Shown here piece after piece: positions 4,525 to 28,281 of a DNA stretch of 64,000 nt. The stretch covers positions 1-64,000 of the IMG/VR virus record IMGVR_UViG_3300042340_000507. One strand, 5' to 3'. Positions within the stretch are counted from its first letter, which is position 1; each line of letters opens with the position of its first letter. The translations under genes were made by a program, and so were the position numbers. The stretch comes from a virus. Below the pieces are notes generated by a model that was given only the letters and a program-made list of their open reading frames with translations, ran no database searches and was not told where the DNA came from.

Positions 4525-4536
4525 AATTATATATTG
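4525..4536 (-). promoter_or_regulatory. Late-promoter-like motif
   Basis: Minus-strand CAATATATAAT sits about 6 nt upstream of the ATG at 4519 and inside the last codons of the adhesin gene. Confidence 0.45.
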
Positions 4537-7500
4537 TAACGAATTCTTTGTAAATTATAATTTGATCCAATTTCTGACTGAGTTAAAGCAGACGTGTAGA
4601 TCATTAGCATGGATATATCACCAGCAAATGAATTTTGACCAACATATCTCCCTATAGAATCTAATGGATTTGTGGCTGGGCCACCTATCGAAGAATCACT
4701 AACCGTACCATCAAACACACCATTTACAAAAAATGTCATTGTATTTGCCACATTATTTCGCCAAACTAAATTAACCCAATTTCCTGTATTAATAGTTGTA
4801 TTACCAAGATATTGAACCCAACTTGTTTTATAACTCCAATATGTTATTTTTCCACCATTTATACATAACTGGGAATAGACAGGACCTCCTGATTGATTAC
4901 TTATAATTGTACCCTGACCTAATCCAGTAACGGTTGTGGTTGTTCTAACCCAAGCAGAAATTGTCCATGGTGTACTACCGTTACCCATATTTATACTTGA
5001 ACTCAATAGTATTCTATCATTAGATCCATCAAAATTCCAAAATCCTCCATTTTGGGGGGAGAACCCTACTCCATTTTGTAAAGAACCGGTAACTGTTCCT
5101 GTTAAAGAGTAGGAAGCAGTTCCCCCAGCTGGATAACTAACCAAATTACCTGCATCCAGATAAAAAGACAGCCCCGAGGTGACGATCGGTCCTTGATAGT
5201 AGTTCTGGAGGATTTCTGCCTGTGAAAGTTGTTTGTTATAGAGTGAATACCTATCCAAATTTCCCTTCATTGTGCCGGAACGGTTGATTTGAAATCTTAA
5301 ATTAGTGGGGCTTGGAACGTTTGTTGTATTATTAACAATCCCATTCCAATATAAATTTAATTGGTTAGAACTGTTTTTAGTAATAGCCCAATTAATAAAT
5401 CTTCCTAAAAAAGGGGAAACTGCAGTTTCGTATGATCTCCAGTCGTAACCTGTTGGCCTTGTTATAGCATAAAAAAACTGGGCTGTCAAAAAATTAGATG
5501 AATTTCTAAATCCTAATTGACAATTTAAGCGGTAACCCCCTAAAATACCTGTGCCTGAACTGAAGCTAGAATCGATAGTACCATCCGAATTCAATCTACA
5601 TAACTGGTTAGCGGTAGAACCGTTATAGGCAGAGAATTCTCCTCCAACTAAGATTTTTCCATCAGATTGGATAGCGATGGCACCAACAGATGAACTGAAT
5701 CCAGTTCCAATAGAAAATCCAGTATCTATGGTACCATTTGTATTTAGTCTAATAATTCTATTTCTAGACGACCCGTTATAAGTTTGGAATTGTCCAGCTA
5801 CTACTATTTTACCGTTACTATCTAAGGCCAAAGCTGTTACATTTGAGTCGAATCCGGTTCCATAGACAAAACCGGTATCTATACTACCATCTGAATTTAA
5901 TCTTATTATTCTGTTCGCACTGGTTCCGTTGTAAGTGGTAAAGTTTCCACCCACTATAATTTTTCCATCACTTTGTATAGCAATACAATTTCTAATTACT
6001 GTATTATTGAATCCAGTCCCGGGGTTGAAAGAAGTGTCTATTGTGGCATCGGAGTTGAGTCTGATTATTCTGTTGTATGACGAACCTTTGTAGGAAGTAA
6101 ATTGCCCACCGACAATTAATTTACCATCACTCTGAAGGGCCATCATCTGAACATCTTCTTCGTTTACAAATCCCGTGGTCGTGTTAAAAGAAGTATCTAT
6201 AGTCATTCCTGGCATATTAATCCTTGCTATTCTTTGAGCGGCAGTCCCCTGAATAGATGTAAACCATCCACCGATGTAAGCTTTATTATTTGCTGAATCA
6301 AGAAGTAAATTTGCCTGAGTAATAGTAGCATTGACCGTTGCAATAGCCTGGAGTTGTGATCCACTGGTTGCACTTATTCTTACTAGATTTCCGAAGTTAT
6401 ATCCAACATAGTAAAGGTTGCCCGATGCATCTAATTGAAGTCCTGTGACGGCTTGGGTTTGGGTCAGAGTTAGGCCAGTGTTAAATGCAGTTACTAAGTT
6501 TCCAGAGCTATCGGTCTTAATGATGAAGCTTATAGAAGTTCCATTATACTCCGTTATTCTACCCCCCACGAAAACATTTCCATTACCGTCAACCACTATT
6601 GAATAAGTGAAAACTGAATAGGATAATTCAAAGAGTAGATTACCCGGGGTGAGTCCAGCAGAATTAGACGCAAAAGTGTTCAATTGGGTAGATTTTATTT
6701 TTTCAAAATTCAACAAAAAAGTTCCCTGAAAAGACCAATTTTCTAAATCAACTGCTGTATTGTAATTAAATCTATCATCAGACCCATCGAAAGTTATCCA
6801 ACCTGAAGAGTTAAAAATCGGCCCATTCACCAACGTTCCATTATTTCCACTGGGACCAAGATCGTACCACGTTGCTCCTGTCGCCGGATAGGAAGCAACA
6901 AAATTAGCATCCAGATTCAAAGCCAAACCGTCGGTCACAATATCCTCGTAGTTTCGGTTTGCACAGAACAGATTAGGCTGGGAATCTATCCAGAAAAGAG
7001 CATCTGGGGCTGTGGTTATTTCTGTTCTGGTACCGTTGACGAACCAAGTAGAGTATGATTTCTCTTCTGACTGCGCCAAAGTAAAATACATCGGAATATT
7101 TAACGTGATAGAGCCGGCATCCCAATAAGGATAGTTAGTAGAAGTAGAAGACAAAACAGTAAATTCTACTTTTTTCCAATTCTCTGTTAAAGATTCATTT
7201 CCTGTATTTCCTGTAAAACCAGATTGGGTTCTTTTACCAAAAATTCCTGATCCTTTTACATATGCAGATAAAGAGTAAGTTTTTCCATTTAAATACTTTC
7301 CTCCATTTCCTTGGTGGAAATGAGCAGGCCCGCTACTAGAACTTACCTTAGTAATCTTAAGAGCTTTAATCTGATTCCCGAGAGGACCTGTTACGGTTTC
7401 TACCGAATACTGAAAAATATTATTATCCCAGGAGCCGAATTGCCAAGAAGTTGTTGAATTTTCAAATGCCGGGTTTTGGTATTGGTTCGTTGTTGCCTCT

Positions 7501-7754
7501 CCCCCAGCTCCCTTGGCATAATTTATAAGACCGGCGTCGTTGTTTAGCACGGCAGCTGAAAACCCGTAGGCATTGTAGTCGGCTCCAGTTCTTTCTTGGT
7601 AAACAACATAACCTCCGATGGGAGCGTCAATCCCGTTCCAAAATCCAGTTTCAGAGGTAGGGGCATAACTGACATTGTTAATTCCGATAGATGCGGAGCC
7701 TTTTCTCAAAGAATTGGTAGAGGTGTTACTCGAAAATTTAATGGCATTGGGCAT
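4527..7754 (-). CDS. Large adhesin with LamG and delta-60 repeats
   Basis: 1075 residues. The first 100 (with GFWNGIDAPIGGYVVYQ) match in pattern the N-terminus of the adhesin at 30505, so this is probably the virion-anchoring part. A LamG-like domain starts near residue 275 (LALNLDANFVASYPATGATW). At least five delta-60 (DUF5122) beta-propeller repeats follow, typified by LQSDGKLIVGGQFTSYKG and RIIRLNSDGSIDTGF. A second LamG domain ends the protein (FWNFDGSNDRILL). It is a likely receptor- or glycan-binding fibre protein. Transcribed from 7772-7784. Confidence 0.85.
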   Translation of the reverse strand: MPNAIKFSSNTSTNSLRKGSASIGINNVSYAPTSETGFWNGIDAPIGGYVVYQERTGADYNAYGFSAAVLNNDAGLINYAKGAGGEATTNQYQNPAFENSTTSWQFGSWDNNIFQYSVETVTGPLGNQIKALKITKVSSSSGPAHFHQGNGGKYLNGKTYSLSAYVKGSGIFGKRTQSGFTGNTGNESLTENWKKVEFTVLSSTSTNYPYWDAGSITLNIPMYFTLAQSEEKSYSTWFVNGTRTEITTAPDALFWIDSQPNLFCANRNYEDIVTDGLALNLDANFVASYPATGATWYDLGPSGNNGTLVNGPIFNSSGWITFDGSDDRFNYNTAVDLENWSFQGTFLLNFEKIKSTQLNTFASNSAGLTPGNLLFELSYSVFTYSIVVDGNGNVFVGGRITEYNGTSISFIIKTDSSGNLVTAFNTGLTLTQTQAVTGLQLDASGNLYYVGYNFGNLVRISATSGSQLQAIATVNATITQANLLLDSANNKAYIGGWFTSIQGTAAQRIARINMPGMTIDTSFNTTTGFVNEEDVQMMALQSDGKLIVGGQFTSYKGSSYNRIIRLNSDATIDTSFNPGTGFNNTVIRNCIAIQSDGKIIVGGNFTTYNGTSANRIIRLNSDGSIDTGFVYGTGFDSNVTALALDSNGKIVVAGQFQTYNGSSRNRIIRLNTNGTIDTGFSIGTGFSSSVGAIAIQSDGKILVGGEFSAYNGSTANQLCRLNSDGTIDSSFSSGTGILGGYRLNCQLGFRNSSNFLTAQFFYAITRPTGYDWRSYETAVSPFLGRFINWAITKNSSNQLNLYWNGIVNNTTNVPSPTNLRFQINRSGTMKGNLDRYSLYNKQLSQAEILQNYYQGPIVTSGLSFYLDAGNLVSYPAGGTASYSLTGTVTGSLQNGVGFSPQNGGFWNFDGSNDRILLSSSINMGNGSTPWTISAWVRTTTTVTGLGQGTIISNQSGGPVYSQLCINGGKITYWSYKTSWVQYLGNTTINTGNWVNLVWRNNVANTMTFFVNGVFDGTVSDSSIGGPATNPLDSIGRYVGQNSFAGDISMLMIYTSALTQSEIGSNYNLQRIRYNI

Positions 7755-18120: not shown

Positions 18121-19863
18121 TTAAATTTTGATGATGAGAGTACTTGCTCCATCCCAGGATTCTTCAAACAAAAAACTTCCATGTTCGAAAACACGAATTT
18201 TAGCAACATTCTGAAAATCACTTTTGAGCCAATAATAAGTTCCCAAAGAATGCAGTATGCTTTCGGTCCTACCATCCTCAAATGTAATTTCTATTGTTCT
18301 TTCGACTTGGGAATCTCTCAAATTGCGGCTAAAGATTGAAAAGCCCAAATCTTGCCCGGCAAGATCCCGGACAGCAAAAAGTGCGGTTAGACACCCTTGA
18401 TATTTTGGATCTGTGTTATATACCCCCGTGACCAAATTCCATTTGGTGTCAGGAAAATCCAGAAAAAGTTGGGTTAAGCCATCTCGAACCATGTAGGTGT
18501 CAGGATCTTGAGAAGTCAAATTCAAATGGAAAAATTTTTCCACGTCCAAAAAATCCAAATTGCCCTGTCTCTGAATCAAATAATTTCGATAATCCTCTTC
18601 TAATTTAATTTCTTGAATCAAATTTTTGAAATGTTTAATGTCGGCAAAGATGGGCACCGAAGAAACATCAGAATCCCCATTGAAATAAAATAAGGCTTGG
18701 GCTGGACCAGGAGAACACAGTTGGGGTAGATTGCCTAAGAATTCCAAAGACTTTGGCCCAAATTGGTTGTCCCCCGTCAGATACAAAAAAGTTTTGTAAC
18801 CCATTGAATCTGCCAACGCCAGGGAATGACTCAAATTGCGAAGCACAGATAAGCCATATCTTTGATACGAAGGCAACCAGTGGTTTATTTCCAATTCATC
18901 GGTTCCAAACCAAAATCTGAGAATGGGAATATTAGTGTAATCCGAACCAAAATAGGGTGCTTCTTTCAGGTAAATAAAGAAATTTATGCGGGCCAAAGTT
19001 TCAGGTTGAAGCCGAGAATTCGAAACAACCATGACATCAAATCCAAGTTGTAACAAACCGTCCAAAGAGCGATTCAAAATTTCTTCCGTCTCTGGATTGT
19101 AAATGTAGGTCGTGATTAAAATGAGAGGCTTGTCAGTTTGAGAAATTTTTGGTGACTCAGAATTGACCCCAGATTTGGAAATTCTTTTCAAATATCCGTT
19201 CGGATTAAACGTGGCATTTGTTCCAAACATGTCAGTCCATCTGCGATCCACCACGAATTCTGGGTTATTTCGAAGTAAATTTTCCGTGGCCAACATCGGA
19301 CCACCCCCGTAGGCGGAGGGATCTTCAAAATAAATTACCCCGTCCTCGATGATGTAATATGAATTTAAGGAGACCCAAGGAGAAAATTTTGAGAACGCCT
19401 GACTTACATCCTCCGCAAAGTGAGACCCGTCATCAATCACCAGGATGGTGTTGAAACCCGACATGAGATTGACATCATAACCTTGATAGCCTTCGCCAAA
19501 TAAACGAATATTGGGGTGGGATGTTACCACAGGATTCAGATCCTCTGGAACGGCAAGATCTATCGAGTGGACCATCCCACCCCAACGAGAAACGATGTCC
19601 GCCAGATATAGTGCTCCTCCTCCTTCATGAGTTCCAATTTCCACCACCAAATCGGGTTTAACCTCCTCGAGAATCATCTGGTACATGACATAATCAAATG
19701 GACATTTCAGATATCTAATACCCCGATAGGTCACCGCGAAATGACCCGAATTGGGCCAAACGTGGCTGCCTTGAATGGAAGCCAAATTTAAATCATATGT
19801 TTTGGGAAAGGGAACATTTGTCTCCATAGTTGAATTCAATGTGATTAAAAAGTTTCTTGGCAT
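18121..19863 (-). CDS. CmcI-like methyltransferase fused to a glycosyltransferase-like domain
   Basis: 580 residues. Residues ~40-230 are cephalosporin-hydroxylase/CmcI-like: YRGIRYLKCPFDYVMYQ, LVVEIGTHEGGGALYLAD (SAM site), VHSIDLAVPED, ILVIDDGSHFAEDV, YYIIEDGV. From about 245 a second domain begins (PLILITTYIYNPETEEIL, LGFDVMVVSNSR, FLYLTGDNQF), with the look of a GT-A-type glycosyltransferase. It probably makes or modifies a methylated glycan. It sits between two relics of a GT25 gene, so this segment replaced an older glycosyltransferase. Confidence 0.7.
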   Translation of the reverse strand: MPRNFLITLNSTMETNVPFPKTYDLNLASIQGSHVWPNSGHFAVTYRGIRYLKCPFDYVMYQMILEEVKPDLVVEIGTHEGGGALYLADIVSRWGGMVHSIDLAVPEDLNPVVTSHPNIRLFGEGYQGYDVNLMSGFNTILVIDDGSHFAEDVSQAFSKFSPWVSLNSYYIIEDGVIYFEDPSAYGGGPMLATENLLRNNPEFVVDRRWTDMFGTNATFNPNGYLKRISKSGVNSESPKISQTDKPLILITTYIYNPETEEILNRSLDGLLQLGFDVMVVSNSRLQPETLARINFFIYLKEAPYFGSDYTNIPILRFWFGTDELEINHWLPSYQRYGLSVLRNLSHSLALADSMGYKTFLYLTGDNQFGPKSLEFLGNLPQLCSPGPAQALFYFNGDSDVSSVPIFADIKHFKNLIQEIKLEEDYRNYLIQRQGNLDFLDVEKFFHLNLTSQDPDTYMVRDGLTQLFLDFPDTKWNLVTGVYNTDPKYQGCLTALFAVRDLAGQDLGFSIFSRNLRDSQVERTIEITFEDGRTESILHSLGTYYWLKSDFQNVAKIRVFEHGSFLFEESWDGASTLIIKI

Positions 19864-19956
19864 TATATGGGATTAAACGTGGATGTTTCAAGGTGTTTCT
19901 AAATCCAAGAAGATACGTAAGATACCAACTCTAGGTTTCCAATTTTAATTCTCGGA

Positions 19957-19970
19957 GAAAATATATAAAG
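19957..19970 (+). promoter_or_regulatory. Late-promoter-like motif (variant)
   Basis: GAAAATATATAAAG about 17 nt before the ATG at 19987. Confidence 0.5.
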
Positions 19971-19986
19971 AAAATTAATTTCATAT

Positions 19987-20443
19987 ATGTCGAGGGTTCT
20001 GAATTTCAATCAATTTTCAAAATTGTATGAGACCGAGACCGGCCAGCCCGTAACTTTAGACACAGAAGCTAGGGACTTGCTGGATGTGATTATTTATCTA
20101 GTTTCATCCTGGTATGGTTCTTTGCTAAGTTTAACTCCGAGTGGAGAATATAAAGAAATCTTACAAGATTTAACCTCAATTATTTCAGCAGGGGTAGATC
20201 AAAAAGGAGAGGCCATGAAAAAAAATCATAGCCAAAGTTGGAGCTTCGATCAGCAAGGAATTTAAAGAAGCAGGCTTGGAAAAGCTTTGGACAGACGCAG
20301 GAAATCTATCGGCTGACTCATATACAGCTTTAGTTGACCAATTTAAAGACGATAAGGATAAGTCAGAGGCCGCTAGCGGGAAATATTTCAAATTCCCACC
20401 CAATCCACTCCATTTCTTTTCTGAATTTTTCCAGTCTATCTGA
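19987..20443 (+). pseudogene. Tagged internal-protein-like gene, frameshifted and truncated
   Basis: The start MSRVLNFNQFSKLYETE is a clear tag. Frame 1 continues to a stop at 20265. At an A8 run (20218-20225) the natural frame shifts: removing one A gives a continuous helical protein (KKIIAKVGASISKEFKEAG, LEKLWTDAGNLSADSYTALV) up to about 20373. There it runs into the GT25 relic and stops at 20441-20443. The gene has therefore lost both its frame and its 3' end. The homopolymer indel could also be a sequencing error. Confidence 0.6.
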
Positions 20444-20509
20444 TCTTTTCTCTAAGTTTATAACAATTTTTTTAATTTCTGAAAAAGTGATTTTAGACAT
20501 GTTTTTTAT
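20374..20509 (-). pseudogene. Relic of a GT25-like gene 5' end
   Basis: 136 bp matching 26847-26982 with three mismatches. On the minus strand it encodes the start MSKITFSEIKKIVINLEKRS and about 42 codons of the GT25 gene, then stops at the junction with the tagged gene. Confidence 0.85.
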
Positions 20510-20796
20510 TTCTGCTCTGAGGAACCTGATTTTTTCTCCTTTTCCTTCTCTTTTTTTGGTCTCTTCTTTTTCTTTTCTGGAGTCTTAAATTTAAGAAAAG
20601 CAGGTAAAAATTCAGGATTTGTGTACAGCAGATTCAAGGCATCGGTGATTTTAAATTCTTTGCCTAAAAAAATCCGGTCTAGATCTTTGATTCTCTGTTC
20701 CCAGGACTTGTAATCAAAATCCTCTTGATTTGCGACGTCTTTGACCGAGATTTCACCCCTAATTAATTTCTGGAGAAGTCTGGCTCTTTTAGACAT
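20506..20796 (-). CDS. Small basic protein of unknown function
   Basis: 96 residues from the ATG at 20796 (MSKRARLLQKLIRGEIS). A longer frame to 20967 would overlap the divergent promoters and is rejected. The C-terminus is a Lys/Glu-rich tail. The promoter motif at 20886-20897 points at it. Function unknown. Confidence 0.5.
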   Translation of the reverse strand: MSKRARLLQKLIRGEISVKDVANQEDFDYKSWEQRIKDLDRIFLGKEFKITDALNLLYTNPEFLPAFLKFKTPEKKKKRPKKEKEKEKKSGSSEQK

Positions 20797-20885
20797 CGAA
20801 TTTTCCACTGCGATGACACCTTTTTTTTCGAACAGTGGATATGGGAGGAGATATTTCACAGGATCAGAAGGACAAGTTCTTTTGG

Positions 20886-20897
20886 CTATATATCTTG
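20886..20897 (-). promoter_or_regulatory. Late-promoter-like motif
   Basis: Minus-strand CAAGATATATAG, about 90 nt before the ATG at 20796. Divergent to the plus-strand motif at 20914. Confidence 0.5.
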
Positions 20898-20913
20898 AAG
20901 GACTGTTCTTGAT

Positions 20914-20923
20914 CGATATATAG
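20914..20923 (+). promoter_or_regulatory. Late-promoter-like motif
   Basis: CGATATATAG, 24 nt before the ATG at 20948. Confidence 0.6.
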
Positions 20924-20947
20924 ACTGAAGCCAAAAAAAATTCTCCG

Positions 20948-23707
20948 ATGACCCCAGAAATAGACAAAAAAGTAAAAGAACTATTCGAGCAAACCCCTGA
21001 AGAAATTGGGGTTGGTTATGGACTGGTAATGAAAGGCGGCCAACTGACAGGAGAACGGGGATTTGTTTATTACGTTCCTAGAAAAATTCCTATTGAGGAC
21101 CTCCAACCGGACCAGATTCTACCTTCCCAAATCGATCTAGATGGTGTTTCACACCAAACGGATGTCATTGAGATAGGAGAAATTAATCTTCTAAATTGTT
21201 CTCCTAATGTTGCTAATAACTGTTATGGGTGGCAGACGGTCTCCCCTGGCAACAGAGGAACAATTCGTCCTTTGCAGGGAGGAATTTCTCTGAGATCTGA
21301 TTTTCGAGGGATTGGGACTTTAGGATTTCTGGCTCTAGATTCAGACACCGGATCGTTAGTAGGTGTGACCAACAATCACGTAGTGGTTGGGGCTCCTTTT
21401 TACACCGGAAATAGATTACAGCCAACTGTTCCTTTGCCTTTAGTGCCTAGCGATAACGAGGTGAACGATAATGCCTATAACACAGGAGAGGCTGGGGCAG
21501 ATCCTCTTTTGAAGATTGGTGAAGTAGTTAGATACGTTCCCATTTATGCTACCTCAGTTGCAGGAGTTCCTCAGACTATTTATAATAACGTTGATGGGGC
21601 TTTGATCTCTATCCTACCTTCGGTGGTAACCGAAAGCGATTCATGGAGACAATATGGACTTCTTGGACAAACTGGACCTATGCCTTTCGCTACTACTGCA
21701 GAGATAAATTCTTTGATTGGCCAAACAGCTGCTAGCTCCGGTCGAACTACAGGGGTGAAAGAGGGTTCTAACTGTGGTTTACTGATACACTCTGTTAACT
21801 ACAGTAGTCAGGTAGCTCCTTATCCTTTAAGACCCTATTCTGGAGCTCCTGCCTTATTTCAGAATTTAATATCTTTTACCAGAATTAATCCCGCTTGTAA
21901 CTACCCCATAGCACCTGGGGATTCAGGTTCAGCCTTATGTGCAATTATCAATGGTACTTATAAAATAATTGGTCTTTGTTTTGCCGGTTCCCTTTCTTTT
22001 GGCCTCGCCTGCCGTATAGATTATGTTGCGGCAGAACTAGGAATTGAGGCTTGGGTAGGGCAAACCCCTAACTATGTGTCTAGCAAAAACATTCTCAGTA
22101 TTCCGGGGGTATCAAACCAAAAAATCCAAATTTGCGAGGGTGAAGAATATTGGCAGGTAGGACTTTATAATTCCCTAGTTCCATGCACTCAGCCTTCGGC
22201 TTCGAATACCCCCTCTCAAACCCCCACTAACACCCCGACCCCTACCAATACTCCTAGCCCAACACCAACCCCCTGTGCCTGTACTACTTTCGAGATAATA
22301 ACAGGGGTGGGTGTTATTTCGATCCAGTACACCAATTGCAATACTGGTGCTATCTCTTTTTTAGGAGGGGCATCTCCAGGCTTACCTTATCCAACTGGCA
22401 GTCTAATCAGAATCTGTTCTTGTTCAGTTCCTCAGGCAGTTGGTGGAACCATCACCGTCCAAAATCCAGTTTCTGGGTGTTCCCCCTACAACTTGACCAT
22501 CGGCACAGTGACTGGAAATGCAGGAGATGTGGTGGAAGTTCCTGTTATTTTGAATCTAAACCCTTCTATTCAGTTTCAGCTGGGATCTATTTCTCTCTGG
22601 GTTCTTTATGACTCTAATGATTTATCCTGTGCTTCTCCTTTCTACACAGATCTGAATCCAATTTTCACCCAAAACACAGTTTTCAACTGCGGGACTCCGG
22701 ATCCTTCTTTCGGAACGGGACTGGAAGTATTTAGCTTTGCGTGGTTTGATTTATCGGGGCCCAATTGGACAACAGGTACCTTGTTTAAAATCAGATTTAC
22801 TGTTTTACAGTCAGGAACCCATCCTTTGATTTTCGCTCCAGATCCTTCATATTATGAAGTTGCTGACCCTAACGGTATTCCCTATCAACCAATGACAACC
22901 CAGGCCGGAGCTGTCGTTGCTCCTCTTACCCCGACCCCTACTCCTAGTCCTACTAGCACCCCTATTGCTGCTTTTATAAGTCAATGGACTACGACAACTT
23001 CTAATGAAACTATTTTCCTCCCGTTGGTTCCTTCTGGCTCATATAATTTCACAGTCAATTGGGGAGACGGTAACACCGAAACAATTACTACACCGAGTCA
23101 GAATTTTCATGTCTATTCCACTGCTGGAACTTACACTGTCACTATTAGAGGTCAAATTCAAGGTTGGAGTTTCGCCCAGGTGGCATATTCTAGACAAAAT
23201 ATAGTTTCCGTATTGGAGTGGGGTCCATTAAGAGTTGGTAATTACGGTGGTAATTTTAACGGGTGTACTAATTTAAATCTGAGTTCCATTTCAGATTCTC
23301 TTGATCTCACTGGGATTACAAGTTTATATTCTTTCTTCGAGAATTGTGGTAATATAACTACAATTCAAAATATCAATTCTTGGGATGTCTCATCGGTGAC
23401 GAATATGTCGGTGATGTTCGGTGATTGCTTCGTCTTCAACCAGTCTCTCGATTCTTGGGATGTCTCATCGGTGACGAATATGTCGGGGATGTTCCGTAAT
23501 TGCTCCGTCTTCAACCAGTCTCTCGATTCTTGGGATGTCTGTCTGGTTAACAATATGAATAGTATGTTCGAGGATTGCTCATCCTACGATCAGGATATTT
23601 CAAGCTGGAACGTGCCATTAATTCCTTCTCCTCCTTCTCTTTTTGATTTTGGAACCCCAGCTTCTTGGACGTTAGCTGAAAAACCCAACTGGGGAGCTTC
23701 CTGTTAA
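20948..23707 (+). CDS. Trypsin-like protease fused to cohesin and DUF285 domains
   Basis: 919 residues. Residues ~100-380 form a chymotrypsin-fold protease with a full apparent triad: H144 in TNNHVV, D216 in NVDGALI, S326 in APGDSGSA. Pro/Thr linkers follow (TPTNTPTPTNTPSPTPTP). A cohesin-like domain (LTIGTVTGNAGDVVEVPVIL) spans about 515-655. A second Pro/Thr linker, a PKD-like domain (YNFTVNWGDGNTETITTP) and BspA-type DUF285 repeats (SWDVSSVTNMSGMF) end the protein. No signal peptide, so it is probably a virion surface protein that binds and cuts. It sits between glycosyltransferase genes, which might modify its Thr-rich linkers (inference). Confidence 0.8.
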   Translation: MTPEIDKKVKELFEQTPEEIGVGYGLVMKGGQLTGERGFVYYVPRKIPIEDLQPDQILPSQIDLDGVSHQTDVIEIGEINLLNCSPNVANNCYGWQTVSPGNRGTIRPLQGGISLRSDFRGIGTLGFLALDSDTGSLVGVTNNHVVVGAPFYTGNRLQPTVPLPLVPSDNEVNDNAYNTGEAGADPLLKIGEVVRYVPIYATSVAGVPQTIYNNVDGALISILPSVVTESDSWRQYGLLGQTGPMPFATTAEINSLIGQTAASSGRTTGVKEGSNCGLLIHSVNYSSQVAPYPLRPYSGAPALFQNLISFTRINPACNYPIAPGDSGSALCAIINGTYKIIGLCFAGSLSFGLACRIDYVAAELGIEAWVGQTPNYVSSKNILSIPGVSNQKIQICEGEEYWQVGLYNSLVPCTQPSASNTPSQTPTNTPTPTNTPSPTPTPCACTTFEIITGVGVISIQYTNCNTGAISFLGGASPGLPYPTGSLIRICSCSVPQAVGGTITVQNPVSGCSPYNLTIGTVTGNAGDVVEVPVILNLNPSIQFQLGSISLWVLYDSNDLSCASPFYTDLNPIFTQNTVFNCGTPDPSFGTGLEVFSFAWFDLSGPNWTTGTLFKIRFTVLQSGTHPLIFAPDPSYYEVADPNGIPYQPMTTQAGAVVAPLTPTPTPSPTSTPIAAFISQWTTTTSNETIFLPLVPSGSYNFTVNWGDGNTETITTPSQNFHVYSTAGTYTVTIRGQIQGWSFAQVAYSRQNIVSVLEWGPLRVGNYGGNFNGCTNLNLSSISDSLDLTGITSLYSFFENCGNITTIQNINSWDVSSVTNMSVMFGDCFVFNQSLDSWDVSSVTNMSGMFRNCSVFNQSLDSWDVCLVNNMNSMFEDCSSYDQDISSWNVPLIPSPPSLFDFGTPASWTLAEKPNWGASC

Positions 23708-23710
23708 AAC

Positions 23711-25387
23711 TCAGTTTTCTCTTCTGAGACTACCTGCATAGTGTTCAAAACGGTCATGTTCGGTGGGGGTCATCAGCAAAAGAGCCGGCTTTAAATCCCC
23801 TTTTTTGACCAGCTGAAACATATGTGACATCCAGGTTTGTTCATAGGGATGAGCCCAAGTTGTGTCCAAGAACATTTTTTTGTTGCCCGTCTTACTGACC
23901 ACCTGAGGCCAATTGGAGTAGTAGATTTCTCCGTCTACATAAGGCACTCCCTGGTGGGAATAAATGTGATTAAACACTGTTCGAGGTGCTTCTGGATCGT
24001 GGCCTATTTTTGGTAATTGTTTCTTGTCGGGAAAATACTCATCCCTGACTGTTTGTGGCACATTGTACCAAGACCACTGAGTGCCGTTGTCCCCAAAAAA
24101 TTCACTGTAATTCAATTTCAGAAAATCATATTCTCCTGAGGAGATAATGTTCATTACTTTCTGATACAATCCCTCGATGTGTCTAGGAAATCCATTGCGA
24201 CAGCGGGTGTCGGGATGCGGATAAAAGAACATATCGTCTTCAAAGAAGAAGTAATAATCTAAATTCTGACCGTCTGCATGCTCTGCGATAAATTGCCTGC
24301 CTCCGCAGATGCCTAAATTGTTGTGTTTCAGATGGGTAAATCCGTGTTCTTGACAGAGTTCTTGGTATCGAGGAGTTGTAGTCAGGTCGGTGGAATTATC
24401 CAACAAGAATTTCTGGGTCTTCTGAATAAAATGGCTGTCGTACTGGAGCATCGAAGTAACCAGGGTTTCAAATTGTCGAGGACTGTTAAATCCAATGACA
24501 TAAAGTCCCACGTTTTCTGGATTGAGCCGAGTGGATGTTATCTGGATAGCATCAGAACTCTGGAGAATCAGTCTATCCTCTTTCAGATCCTCGAAAAATT
24601 TACCTATAAGACCATTGGATTCTATGTCATAGTGAATAAAAGTTTCTGAGAATCTGTAAAGTAGAATTGAAAAAACGGATTCCTCAGTTCCCATATACCC
24701 GGCCTGGAGAGTTGCCATTAAAGTTTGATAGTATAAGGCATTGACGGCGGAGATGGAGGTTTTAGGTCCTCCGAAGAAACCCCCTCTGGCAACTAACTTC
24801 ACGTCACTCCCGGCATATTCGTTGATTTTTGGGTATGAAAACCCGTGAATTTCCGTGTTCGCCTCATAGGGAAAACACACAAATCCAAATTTATGAAAAT
24901 ACTTGGAGAGCTTGTCTTGCACTCGATCGTGTGTGAAATAACCAGGATGAACGGTATTGGTAAGTCCTGCGTCTATCCAAAACATGTGTTCAGAATCAAA
25001 AGGATCCATAATTTTTGCATCATGAAGCAAAAACATCTTAGACATCACCAAGGGATTATAAAATTCTAATTTGGCCTGGGTTGAGCCAGGAAGCCAAGTT
25101 GCCTGTGATAGCCAGTTTGGGTTTTCTCTAATTTGTTGAATCAGATGATAGTAATCGTTGCTTTTAAACCATCCTGTCTCTCTTAAAATAAAGAGAGTAT
25201 TTTTAGGATCTCTCCTTTCTTCGACAAACTTTTTCAATTCAGAATCTCCAAAAACAATTAGATTATTGGGGATGGAAAGTAGTTGCTCAAATTTTTGAAG
25301 GTAATGATTGTAAGATCTTGACCAACCTTCTGATAAGGATCCTCTCTGAATGTTCCAAAGTCCGGTGACAAAAGTAATTCTAGTCAT
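23711..25387 (-). CDS. HtrL/YibB-like protein fused to a second glycosyltransferase domain
   Basis: 558 residues. The first ~290 match the HtrL/WlaTC pattern (TFVTGLWNIQRGS, EFYNPLVMSKMFLL, HMFWIDAGLTN, ARGGFFGG). The C-terminal ~270 look like a GT-A domain with an acidic metal-binding motif (YYFFFEDDMFFYPHPD) and a later KTGNKKMFLDTTW segment. Last gene of the glycosyltransferase operon. Its start overlaps the previous gene by 8 nt. It probably adds sugars to a virion or host glycan. Confidence 0.7.
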   Translation of the reverse strand: MTRITFVTGLWNIQRGSLSEGWSRSYNHYLQKFEQLLSIPNNLIVFGDSELKKFVEERRDPKNTLFILRETGWFKSNDYYHLIQQIRENPNWLSQATWLPGSTQAKLEFYNPLVMSKMFLLHDAKIMDPFDSEHMFWIDAGLTNTVHPGYFTHDRVQDKLSKYFHKFGFVCFPYEANTEIHGFSYPKINEYAGSDVKLVARGGFFGGPKTSISAVNALYYQTLMATLQAGYMGTEESVFSILLYRFSETFIHYDIESNGLIGKFFEDLKEDRLILQSSDAIQITSTRLNPENVGLYVIGFNSPRQFETLVTSMLQYDSHFIQKTQKFLLDNSTDLTTTPRYQELCQEHGFTHLKHNNLGICGGRQFIAEHADGQNLDYYFFFEDDMFFYPHPDTRCRNGFPRHIEGLYQKVMNIISSGEYDFLKLNYSEFFGDNGTQWSWYNVPQTVRDEYFPDKKQLPKIGHDPEAPRTVFNHIYSHQGVPYVDGEIYYSNWPQVVSKTGNKKMFLDTTWAHPYEQTWMSHMFQLVKKGDLKPALLLMTPTEHDRFEHYAGSLRREN

Positions 25388-26258
25388 TCAATTCTTCTAA
25401 TATTTTGTAAAAACTTTTATTTATCCTGAGGTGTTCCTCTATATCTAGATCGGGGATCCCCGAATTTTCGTGCCACCAAGTATCAAACAATTTAATTGAA
25501 AAAATCGATTCGTTGTTTCTCCAGATGACAGTCATGATATTTTCTTCGGGATAAACTCTACCGTCAGATCTTGTTATTTGATCTGTGTAGAGTTCAAAAA
25601 GATTAGTTAGTTTTTCACACGATATTCTATTTCCACCAAAAATTCCCCCGATGATATGGTAATCCGCTGAATAATTGTCATAATGTTTCATGTCTACCGT
25701 TTGTGACCAGAAGTTTCTCTGATTCTCTTTTCCTATTATGAAAATTTTATCATTAGTGAAGGAGATCAAATTTTGTAAAAAATTGTTATTGAAAATGTGA
25801 CTTTCGTAATAACTTCTATGACCTAGGTTTTGTGTGAGATGTTTATTAGGAATTAGCCCGCAGTGGGACAATCCCGCATCAATCCAGAAAAAATAGTCAA
25901 ATTCATCATCTAAATTTTTTTTTAACAATTCGAACTTTGCGTATTGTATTTCTAAACATCTGTCTGAAGAATAAGCCTCCTGATAGTTTTTGTACTCCTC
26001 GAACAAAGCCTGTTGATTAGTTTTGGATAAATCGAAAATTTTTATTTCTAAATTTTCTAGATTTACTCCATTTTCATCATAGAAAAAATTTGATAGATCT
26101 TGAATTTCTGCCTCTGAAGTGTAGCAAATATACTTAGCATTCTCCATTTTCATTAAAGAAAGCAAACTGTATTTATAATGGAGGTTCCTGGATTGCCTGC
26201 CACCAAATTTAGTCCCAAAAAGATTACTATAAATACAGGTTACAAATTTAGTTTTCAT
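25380..26258 (-). CDS. HtrL/YibB-like glycosyltransferase
   Basis: 292 residues. TKFVTCIYSNLFGTKFGGR, a YAKFELLKKNLD segment, DYFFWIDAGLSHCG and IIGGIFGGNR align with the family pattern seen in the N-terminal half of the next gene. The start overlaps the GT25 gene by 11 nt. Its first codons are part of the 123-bp repeat also found at 17924. Confidence 0.7.
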   Translation of the reverse strand: MKTKFVTCIYSNLFGTKFGGRQSRNLHYKYSLLSLMKMENAKYICYTSEAEIQDLSNFFYDENGVNLENLEIKIFDLSKTNQQALFEEYKNYQEAYSSDRCLEIQYAKFELLKKNLDDEFDYFFWIDAGLSHCGLIPNKHLTQNLGHRSYYESHIFNNNFLQNLISFTNDKIFIIGKENQRNFWSQTVDMKHYDNYSADYHIIGGIFGGNRISCEKLTNLFELYTDQITRSDGRVYPEENIMTVIWRNNESIFSIKLFDTWWHENSGIPDLDIEEHLRINKSFYKILEELND

Positions 26259-26311
26259 GTTTTTGTTTTTCTATCCAATTAAAATCTAAGAAATTTGAAT
26301 TTAGCTTATTT
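26189..26311. repeat. 123-bp direct repeat, copy 2
   Basis: Identical to 17924-18046. This copy spans the functional overlap of two glycosyltransferase genes and is probably the source. Confidence 0.9.
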
Positions 26312-26973
26312 GAAGTGTATAAATTCCAGTTGTAAATCATTTGGTAGTGGTTATTGTAGTGGACATTCCCTATATCAGAGAACCCACTTGAATGTGTTAC
26401 TATTGGTAGAGAAGAGGCAAAAGATTTTGTGTTTGGGTACAATGCCAGATCCATGTATTCATCTATGGGTTTTTGTCTGTGATAATTTTCTATGTAGATG
26501 TCCGTGTCCCATTTGCTAATTATTTCACAGCATTTTTTATTTAATATAAAACAATAAGTGCCGAAAACTCCCCTATGTATTTCTGGGTTTTTTTCTGGTA
26601 GCTCGTGAAGATTAATTAAATTTTTTGAGAAGTTTTCAACGGGTCTATGAAAGCATGGAGCAAAATGAAAAAAATCAAAGTCTATTTTAGATAATTCGAT
26701 CTCACATTTGGAGATTTGTTCTTTTGCGTAAGGCATAAAACAGGAATCATCCTCAAATACCATAAAAAAATCTTCCTCTAATTCAAGACATTTTTTGGCT
26801 ATTTCTTGGTGTGAAATTGCACATCCTATATAAGAAGATGTATCTATAGCGGGAAATATTTCAAATTCCCATCCAATCCACTCCATTTCTTTTCTGAATT
26901 TTTCCAGTCTATCGGATCTTTTCTCTAAATTTATAACAATTTTTTTAATTTCTGAAAAAGTGATTTTAGACAT
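26248..26973 (-). CDS. GT25-like glycosyltransferase
   Basis: 241 residues. The start KKIVINLEKRSDRLEKF, the central GCAISHQEIAKKC, the acidic FMVFEDDSCF and the later HRGVFGTYCFILNKKC are the signature of LPS-type glycosyltransferase family 25. Its 5' and 3' ends are duplicated as relics at 20374-20509 and 17924-18046. Operon with its neighbours. Confidence 0.8.
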   Translation of the reverse strand: MSKITFSEIKKIVINLEKRSDRLEKFRKEMEWIGWEFEIFPAIDTSSYIGCAISHQEIAKKCLELEEDFFMVFEDDSCFMPYAKEQISKCEIELSKIDFDFFHFAPCFHRPVENFSKNLINLHELPEKNPEIHRGVFGTYCFILNKKCCEIISKWDTDIYIENYHRQKPIDEYMDLALYPNTKSFASSLPIVTHSSGFSDIGNVHYNNHYQMIYNWNLYTSNKLNSNFLDFNWIEKQKHEN

Positions 26974-26982
26974 GTTTTTTAT
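26847..26982. repeat. 136-bp repeat, intact copy
   Basis: Pairs with 20374-20509 (three mismatches). It holds the 5' end of the GT25 gene and a few bases upstream of its ATG. Confidence 0.85.
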
Positions 26983-26985
26983 GCT

Positions 26986-28281
26986 TTAAGAAACCGAATG
27001 TGATAATTGACCTGTAATTCTTTCACACCAACCCTTGGATTCAGAATGAGGCCATACTACCCAATAGGCTGGATGAACCGCCGTCTGAAATTCTCTCCAG
27101 ATTTTATAGTATCCATCTGGGTCCATCATCATTCTGGATATTTCCTGTTTGTCTGCATCTTTCCGGAAAAGGGTGTTGTCCTGGGCATCGTGAAAAGCCA
27201 CAACCCAAAAATCATAATCAGGCTCTGTTACCTGGTGATATCCCAGATCAATGCAGTGTTTAAAGACCCTCGAGAAACTATTCATCCATTGGTTCTCGTC
27301 TCCTCCGAATTCTTCAATCCCCGGATTAGGAGGGTATTTTTTATCCAGAGTTGCCTGTTGAACTGATCTGCCTGAGAATAAAATACCCGCATATTCTTCA
27401 TATTGTCTGAGGGTCCTGACAGGACCAAATCCATATCGACCGTCGTGTCCTTCCTGCTCTAATCCGTCCATCCCAAAGAGCTTACGGTTCATCAAATGGG
27501 ATCTTTCGTTCTTTTGGACCCACTGTTTATCGTCGTCCCACTGTTTGGTTCTGCCTTTGCGGGTGTACTCATGCCAGATGACTACTCGATGGGGATGGAA
27601 CAAATCATATCCCCAGGTATAGGCTCTAGCGGCAATGGAAATTTCTTCTCCGTGAAAATAATAATAAGGGTTGTGCGGAACCTCCTCACAGAACTTCCCG
27701 AGCGTAAATGCGAAGTGGGCCGAGTAAAACCTTGACGCTACCGGAGCGGTCAAGTTTCTCCAGTCTGGGATGGTCTCAGGTAAAAAAAACACTGCCCCCT
27801 CTGGAATAAATCGATCGAAGGCCATCCTCCAGGGATCTTGAATCCTGCCGGCTGGTTCGTTTTCTGGATCAAAAGAGGAAACGTAAGCCGTTAGCAAAGG
27901 TTTTTTGTGACCCATTTTCTTCAATTGATTTACCATCTGAATGAGATCTTCATCCCAACGAGGAGCAAATCTCATGTGGGAATCAATCTGGAGAGTGTAT
28001 TTTTCCCCCTGGTACTGCTGTTGAACTAGGTGTCTGGCCCAGCATACCCCTTGACTTTCTTCGTGAGGTACATCCAGGATGCGAAAATTGGAGTTGTTTC
28101 TAAACTCGTCCAGATTATCAAAACCATCATCTGGGTGGAACTGACGGCAAATGCCTATCCTTAAATGTTGAGGTGATTTAGCACTTTCAATCATGCTTCT
28201 GAGGGTGGGAACCAGCTGGGGATCCCGATAAGATGCTATTTGAACGAAAATAGTCGGGGAAGAAGAATTACTTCTGGGCAT
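26986..28281 (-). CDS. Skp1-type GlcNAc-transferase family protein
   Basis: 431 residues. The family pattern (PF11397) is clear: TIFVQIASYRDPQLVPTL, LRIGICRQFHPDD, ESQGVCWARHLVQQ, LQIDSHMRFAPRWDED (DxH metal site), SAHFAFTLGKF, YYYFHGEEISIAARAYTWGYDLF. Known members add GlcNAc to hydroxyproline or mucin-like protein. A Thr/Ser/Pro-rich virion protein such as the one at 20948 is a plausible acceptor (inference). Confidence 0.8.
   Translation of the reverse strand: MPRSNSSSPTIFVQIASYRDPQLVPTLRSMIESAKSPQHLRIGICRQFHPDDGFDNLDEFRNNSNFRILDVPHEESQGVCWARHLVQQQYQGEKYTLQIDSHMRFAPRWDEDLIQMVNQLKKMGHKKPLLTAYVSSFDPENEPAGRIQDPWRMAFDRFIPEGAVFFLPETIPDWRNLTAPVASRFYSAHFAFTLGKFCEEVPHNPYYYFHGEEISIAARAYTWGYDLFHPHRVVIWHEYTRKGRTKQWDDDKQWVQKNERSHLMNRKLFGMDGLEQEGHDGRYGFGPVRTLRQYEEYAGILFSGRSVQQATLDKKYPPNPGIEEFGGDENQWMNSFSRVFKHCIDLGYHQVTEPDYDFWVVAFHDAQDNTLFRKDADKQEISRMMMDPDGYYKIWREFQTAVHPAYWVVWPHSESKGWCERITGQLSHSVS

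Follow-up and report, generated by a model that had tools for sequence, protein, structure and literature searches.

A predicted NAL1-type protease joined to adhesin-type modules in a large phage: a candidate surface-digesting adhesin

The gene described here belongs to a large uncultured phage and lies in the linear IMG/VR virus record IMGVR_UViG_3300042340_000507 (177,044 bp), whose first 64 kb (64,000 nucleotides) formed the stretch analysed, referred to below as the window. An open reading frame on the plus strand, free of internal stops, encodes a protein of 919 residues, exactly where the original prediction had placed it. The N-terminal protease is followed, in order, by a Thr-Pro linker, a Cys-rich module, a cohesin-like domain, a second Thr-Pro linker, and a PKD-like domain with DUF285 repeats. 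Neither linker, nor the Cys-rich module that separates them, was part of that prediction. The features are:

20948..23707, plus strand: whole gene, 919 residues (open frame)
20948..22177, plus strand: predicted NAL1-type trypsin-like serine protease, residues 1-410 (phrog_20754, alignments, AlphaFold2, Foldseek)
21377..21379, plus strand: codon of catalytic H144 (invariant column)
21593..21595, plus strand: codon of catalytic D216 (invariant column)
21923..21925, plus strand: codon of catalytic S326, in GDSG (invariant column)
22193..22288, plus strand: Thr-Pro-rich linker 1 (composition scan)
22256..22483, plus strand: small Cys-rich module (seen by eye)
22490..22816, plus strand: cohesin-like domain, residues 515-623, borderline (Pfam PF00963)
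22913..22975, plus strand: Thr-Pro-rich linker 2 (composition scan)
22967..23170, plus strand: PKD-like domain, about residues 674-741 (Pfam profiles below cut-off, alignment, model)
23318..23617, plus strand: DUF285 (BspA/PARCEL) repeats, residues 791-890 (Pfam PF03382, E 6e-31)
23376..23540, plus strand: 75-bp tandem repeat inside DUF285, 2.2 copies, 95% matches (repeat analysis)

The gene stands alone on the plus strand amid minus-strand glycosyltransferase genes and does not belong to a visible tail operon. The surrounding minus-strand cluster (18121-28281) encodes glycosyltransferases and methyltransferases, among them a PF11397 GlcNAc-transferase (E 9e-72) and a glycosyltransferase of family 25, and its products might glycosylate the Thr-Pro linkers. 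A 2OG-Fe(II) oxygenase was sought in the virus record and gave no match. Also on the minus strand, positions 4527-7754 encode a 1075-residue protein made of DUF5122 beta-propeller repeats and a LamG domain, with a virion structural PHROG match. GC content is 54% over positions 1-2000 of the window and 29-46% in the remaining 2-kb bins. Outside the window, the record encodes a conserved 1199-residue protein at 166617-170213. Because its relatives, 25-32% identical, occur in Flavobacterium, Tenacibaculum, Chryseobacterium and PAU phages and in the 462-kb LR756500, we group the virus with the large phages of Bacteroidota and the huge metagenomic phages related to them. A giant open reading frame of 3778 residues likewise lies outside the window (G000:155231-166564, loci L007/L008); its product and the window protein are the only two of the record that have long Thr-Pro linkers.

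Residues 6-366 match phrog_20754 (E 2.4e-16), a family that carries "protease" as a database label only, with no function recorded there, and that lacks the C-terminal 500 residues of the window protein. When the region is aligned with a "putative serine protease" of an archaeal virus and three proteins from Rhizobium plasmids, H144, D216, S326 and the GDSG motif are invariant, and these catalytic columns are precisely the residues that had been named as a complete triad. In a larger alignment of 63 sequences, one of them a fragment and 62 covering the triad, His-Asp-Ser is intact in all 62 distinct sequences. The AlphaFold2 model, built with an alignment that included 12 viral homologues, has a mean pLDDT of 79 and a pTM of 0.83 and shows a double beta-barrel fold. 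Its top 34 Foldseek matches in the PDB are all structures of NAL1 (NARROW LEAF 1), the best being the rice leaf-shape protein of that name (E 2.8e-15); query TM is 0.50-0.59, with about 17% identity over about 400 columns. Bacterial proteases resembling alpha-lytic protease come next in the ranking; the best predicted viral structure is an uncharacterized protein of Virus NIOZ-UU157. Both NAL1 profiles score below their curated cut-offs (NAL1_N, PF25608, 15.0 bits versus 27; Nal1_C, PF25819, 11.8 versus 26.1). From alignment and model, residues 1-410 are predicted to be a NAL1-type trypsin-like serine protease, in agreement with the trypsin-like assignment made earlier. The likeness to NAL1 covers the overall fold and the N-terminal domain that precedes the trypsin fold. 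The window protein differs in its viral origin and in the linkers and adhesin modules attached to its protease, which have no counterpart in NAL1. Protease activity has been demonstrated for a maize homologue of NAL1 (PMC12915138).

When the protease or the cohesin region served singly as the query, scans of viral and genome contigs picked up no relatives, and alignments were therefore required. Alignment-based scans of viral contigs gave 14 loci and then 79 loci, revealing a viral NAL1-type protease family that is almost without annotation. Most members are free-standing proteins of about 400-435 residues with no adhesin module of their own. Distant bacterial relatives are present in plasmid records. 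A scan of 84,980 genomes with the A4 alignment found none, which is weak evidence of absence because only two peptide patterns were used. A tblastn search with the protease over 50,697 phage records hit nothing beyond the archaeal Aeropyrum coil-shaped virus (E 0.1), and among those records no tailed phage in culture was seen to carry the protease.

The genomic neighbourhood of the family was compared across 35 clusters at 70% identity, with a strict definition of the Thr-Pro linker. The gene immediately upstream of the protease encodes such a linker in 11 of 33 clusters, against 11 of 231 other genes at the same loci (Fisher p 6e-6, a nominal value, since the contigs are related and the genes lie close together). 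The protease start falls -10 to +25 nt from the upstream stop in 20 of 33, as in coupled translation, and in five clusters the protease is itself fused to Thr-Pro linkers. "Virion structural protein" PHROGs are matched by two of 23 upstream neighbours, and one neighbour matches the same PHROGs as the DUF285 part of the window protein. Contractile-tail genes are present in several of the records: Baseplate_J occurs in 6 of 13; a gp19-like tube match, below cut-off, occurs in 7 of 13, and in six of those seven the gp19-like gene shares its strand with the protease, some 16-72 kb away.

Beyond the first linker, the Cys-rich module had no phmmer relatives among the loci compared at that stage, and similar stretches are seen by eye after linkers in L080 and L140. 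The DUF285 repeats at the far end, as originally predicted, score 107 bits against a cut-off of 25 (PF03382). Because the 75-bp unit inside them is duplicated nearly exactly, the length of the array has probably changed recently. We label the domain before them PKD-like because both PKD profiles score below cut-off (PF00801, 20.4 bits versus 23.5; PF18911, 22.6 versus 27). Its core, YNF.V.WGD, is invariant in 17 of 17 aligned rows, and like the DUF285 part it is modelled mostly at pLDDT > 90, so that the earlier PKD assignment holds as a likeness and falls short at the Pfam threshold. A fold search of the PDB with the C-terminal model gave no significant match. Modelling domain by domain, which had been proposed as a check, upheld the protease fold and gave a confident PKD-DUF285 part, but left the cohesin-like region at low pLDDT.

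The PKD-DUF285 pair is a mobile unit, seen in 20 viral contigs. It forms the C-terminus of Thr-Pro-linked proteins of about 2000 residues (L026, L028), and in LR756500 it belongs to a 384-residue protein adjoining a fibre-like gene. The N-terminal part of the L026 protein was considered as kin of the record's 1199-residue protein, and phmmer rejected the relationship. DUF285 in phage is not unusual by itself: it is present in many phage records and was previously reported in jumbo phage pir03 (PMC7765460), and PARCELs have been described as spread horizontally (PMC2996958). To the BspA-like surface repeats of this class the window protein adds a PKD-like unit and an N-terminal protease.

The cohesin-like domain is a borderline match to PF00963, reaching 24.8 bits as an excerpt (E 2.7e-5) against a cut-off of 24.1 but 20.3 bits in the whole protein, with an E-value of 5.7e-6 in a one-genome search; the model of the region is not confident. 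The earlier cohesin assignment is thus retained at borderline strength. Its supposed oddity in a phage is lessened, as a cohesin-like match of some kind occurs in 6 of 50 virus records searched and is absent from 44, a count that is not a controlled enrichment because the protease-free records in the set are only six DUF285-only contigs and LR756500, all without a cohesin match. In the protease-carrying records L136, L138 and L141 the cohesin-like proteins begin with an apparent signal peptide, and those of L136 and L141 end in an apparent sorting domain for type IX secretion, with repeats resembling dockerins close by (all by eye).

Two further viral contigs, L111 and L129, also encode a protease-PKD-DUF285 fusion. 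The protein of L111 is 37% identical to that of the window in the protease and 37% in the PKD-DUF285 part; for L129 the values are 31% and 36%. A PKD-like stretch is visible by eye in L116, and L080, L105 and L119 have Thr-Pro linkers with other modules. The L129 record also encodes the 1199-residue protein (35% identity, E 9e-113). There the gene that stops immediately upstream of the protease-DUF285 gene is Thr-Pro-linked and has a cohesin-like match of 19.8 bits, which is below cut-off; the cohesin-like domains of this gene and of the window gene show weak pairwise similarity. Parts that form one protein in the window are therefore encoded by neighbouring genes in L129. This pattern is the strongest evidence that protease and adhesin modules would work jointly.

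The reading we prefer, and to which we give close to an even chance, is that the protein is a phage adhesin, most likely of the tail or virion surface, whose own protease would cleave a host-surface protein. The C-terminal PKD-like/DUF285 module, perhaps with the cohesin-like domain, would attach to the host surface, the Thr-Pro linkers would serve as extended tethers, and the N-terminal protease, kept near the surface by its tether, would cut a protein or glycoprotein there, either the receptor itself or one that blocks it. We favour this reading because of the domain order, the tethers, and the coupling or fusion of the protease to adhesin-type genes in relatives. It is supported by the intact triad, the NAL1 fold and the proteolytic maize homologue (PMC12915138), by the repeated occurrence of PKD-DUF285, both in large phage proteins with Thr-Pro linkers and next to a fibre-like gene, and by the virion structural PHROGs among upstream neighbours. 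It is weakened by the isolation of the gene on the plus strand among glycosyltransferase genes, by the free-standing state of most relatives, and by the failure to find a cultured tailed phage carrier among the phage records. Of the receptor binding and digestion put forward by the original prediction, surface binding and digestion is kept as the best-fitting reading; the dockerin partner it suggested is unsupported, since no Dockerin_1 match occurs in the virus record and the cohesin-like domain is borderline. Its term "virion-type" describes something we infer rather than observe.

Such a protein would be the protein-cutting counterpart of polysaccharide depolymerase tailspikes. Comparison with these, and with S74-type self-cleaving fibre chaperones (both from general knowledge), concerns only a similar way of working, an enzyme joined to an adhesion module: the window enzyme has a predicted trypsin fold, in contrast to the glycan-cleaving beta-helix of the tailspikes or the S74 dyad domain.

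The tethered surface protease is preferred to three alternatives. The best placed of these, which we consider rather unlikely, is a morphogenetic protease whose substrates are the Thr-Pro-linked fibre or adhesin proteins of the phage itself, cut for maturation or assembly, in cis here and in trans when encoded next door. Free-standing proteases usually sit just behind a large Thr-Pro-linked protein gene, with start and stop nearly touching, and conserved peptidases of jumbo phages are mostly taken as maturation enzymes (PMC7824862). However, under the strict test the upstream gene is Thr-Pro-linked in about a third of clusters, not in all; a processing enzyme would not need the PKD-DUF285 binding modules fused to it in the window, L111 and L129; and some records carry two or three tandem proteases. 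A host-takeover protease, attacking a host protein within the infected cell in the way that plant NAL1 acts on TOPLESS-type corepressors, seems improbable to us: NAL1 proteins work as regulators inside cells, on a protein target, and the window gene lies outside any obvious structural operon, but Thr-Pro linkers, PKD-like and DUF285 modules are of extracellular or virion types, and the protease genes of relatives are coupled to fibre-like genes. A host receptor bearing a dockerin, bound through the cohesin-like domain and then digested by the protease, is very improbable. The cohesin-like match lies at the Pfam cut-off, and some related phage records have secreted cohesin-like proteins whose repeats resemble dockerins by eye, but the absence of a Dockerin_1 match from the virus record, the 44 records with no cohesin match, the unconfident cohesin-like model and the C-terminal model's lack of a significant PDB match all stand against it.

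Phage enzymes that clear sugars from the cell surface are well known; to our knowledge, virion enzymes that cut surface proteins have been little described. A conserved protease that keeps its triad and that, in many large phages, is fused to adhesins or coupled with them offers a concrete candidate family for the digestion of protein receptors or surface layers, and it gives the NAL1-type proteases, characterised in plants, a large viral branch. A broader version of the tethered surface protease, in which large tailed phages of many environments share an uncharacterised family of virion-displayed NAL1-type proteases that, fused to modular Thr-Pro-linked adhesins or encoded alongside them, strip protein layers or receptors at adsorption as a proteolytic class of phage "depolymerase", seems to us somewhat less likely than not. 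Each part is already known singly, the protease through the phrog_20754 label and DUF285 from a jumbo phage (PMC7765460). As far as our tools show, the NAL1-fold link, the extent of the viral family and of its triad conservation, the Thr-Pro coupling and the recurrent protease-PKD-DUF285 fusion are new, and a search of open-licence papers found none that treats NARROW LEAF 1 and bacteriophage together.

Several family members have unusual arrangements. Two or three tandem paralogous NAL1-like proteases occur per phage contig at L046:2990-7275 (a contig shared with L091), L080 and L096. At L053:5941-9324, in an uncultured virus contig, two long intein-like insertions split the protease; the L050 homologue is uninterrupted. 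The protease at L133:7998-9908 carries a C-terminal phosphatidylethanolamine-binding-protein-like domain (PF01161, E 1.4e-11), and L107, L108, L126 and the second L080 protease have similar C-terminal ends. On Rhizobium conjugative plasmids, the NAL1-like proteases at L038:2860-3852 and L039:2908-3861 adjoin radical SAM and HEXXH peptide-modification genes.
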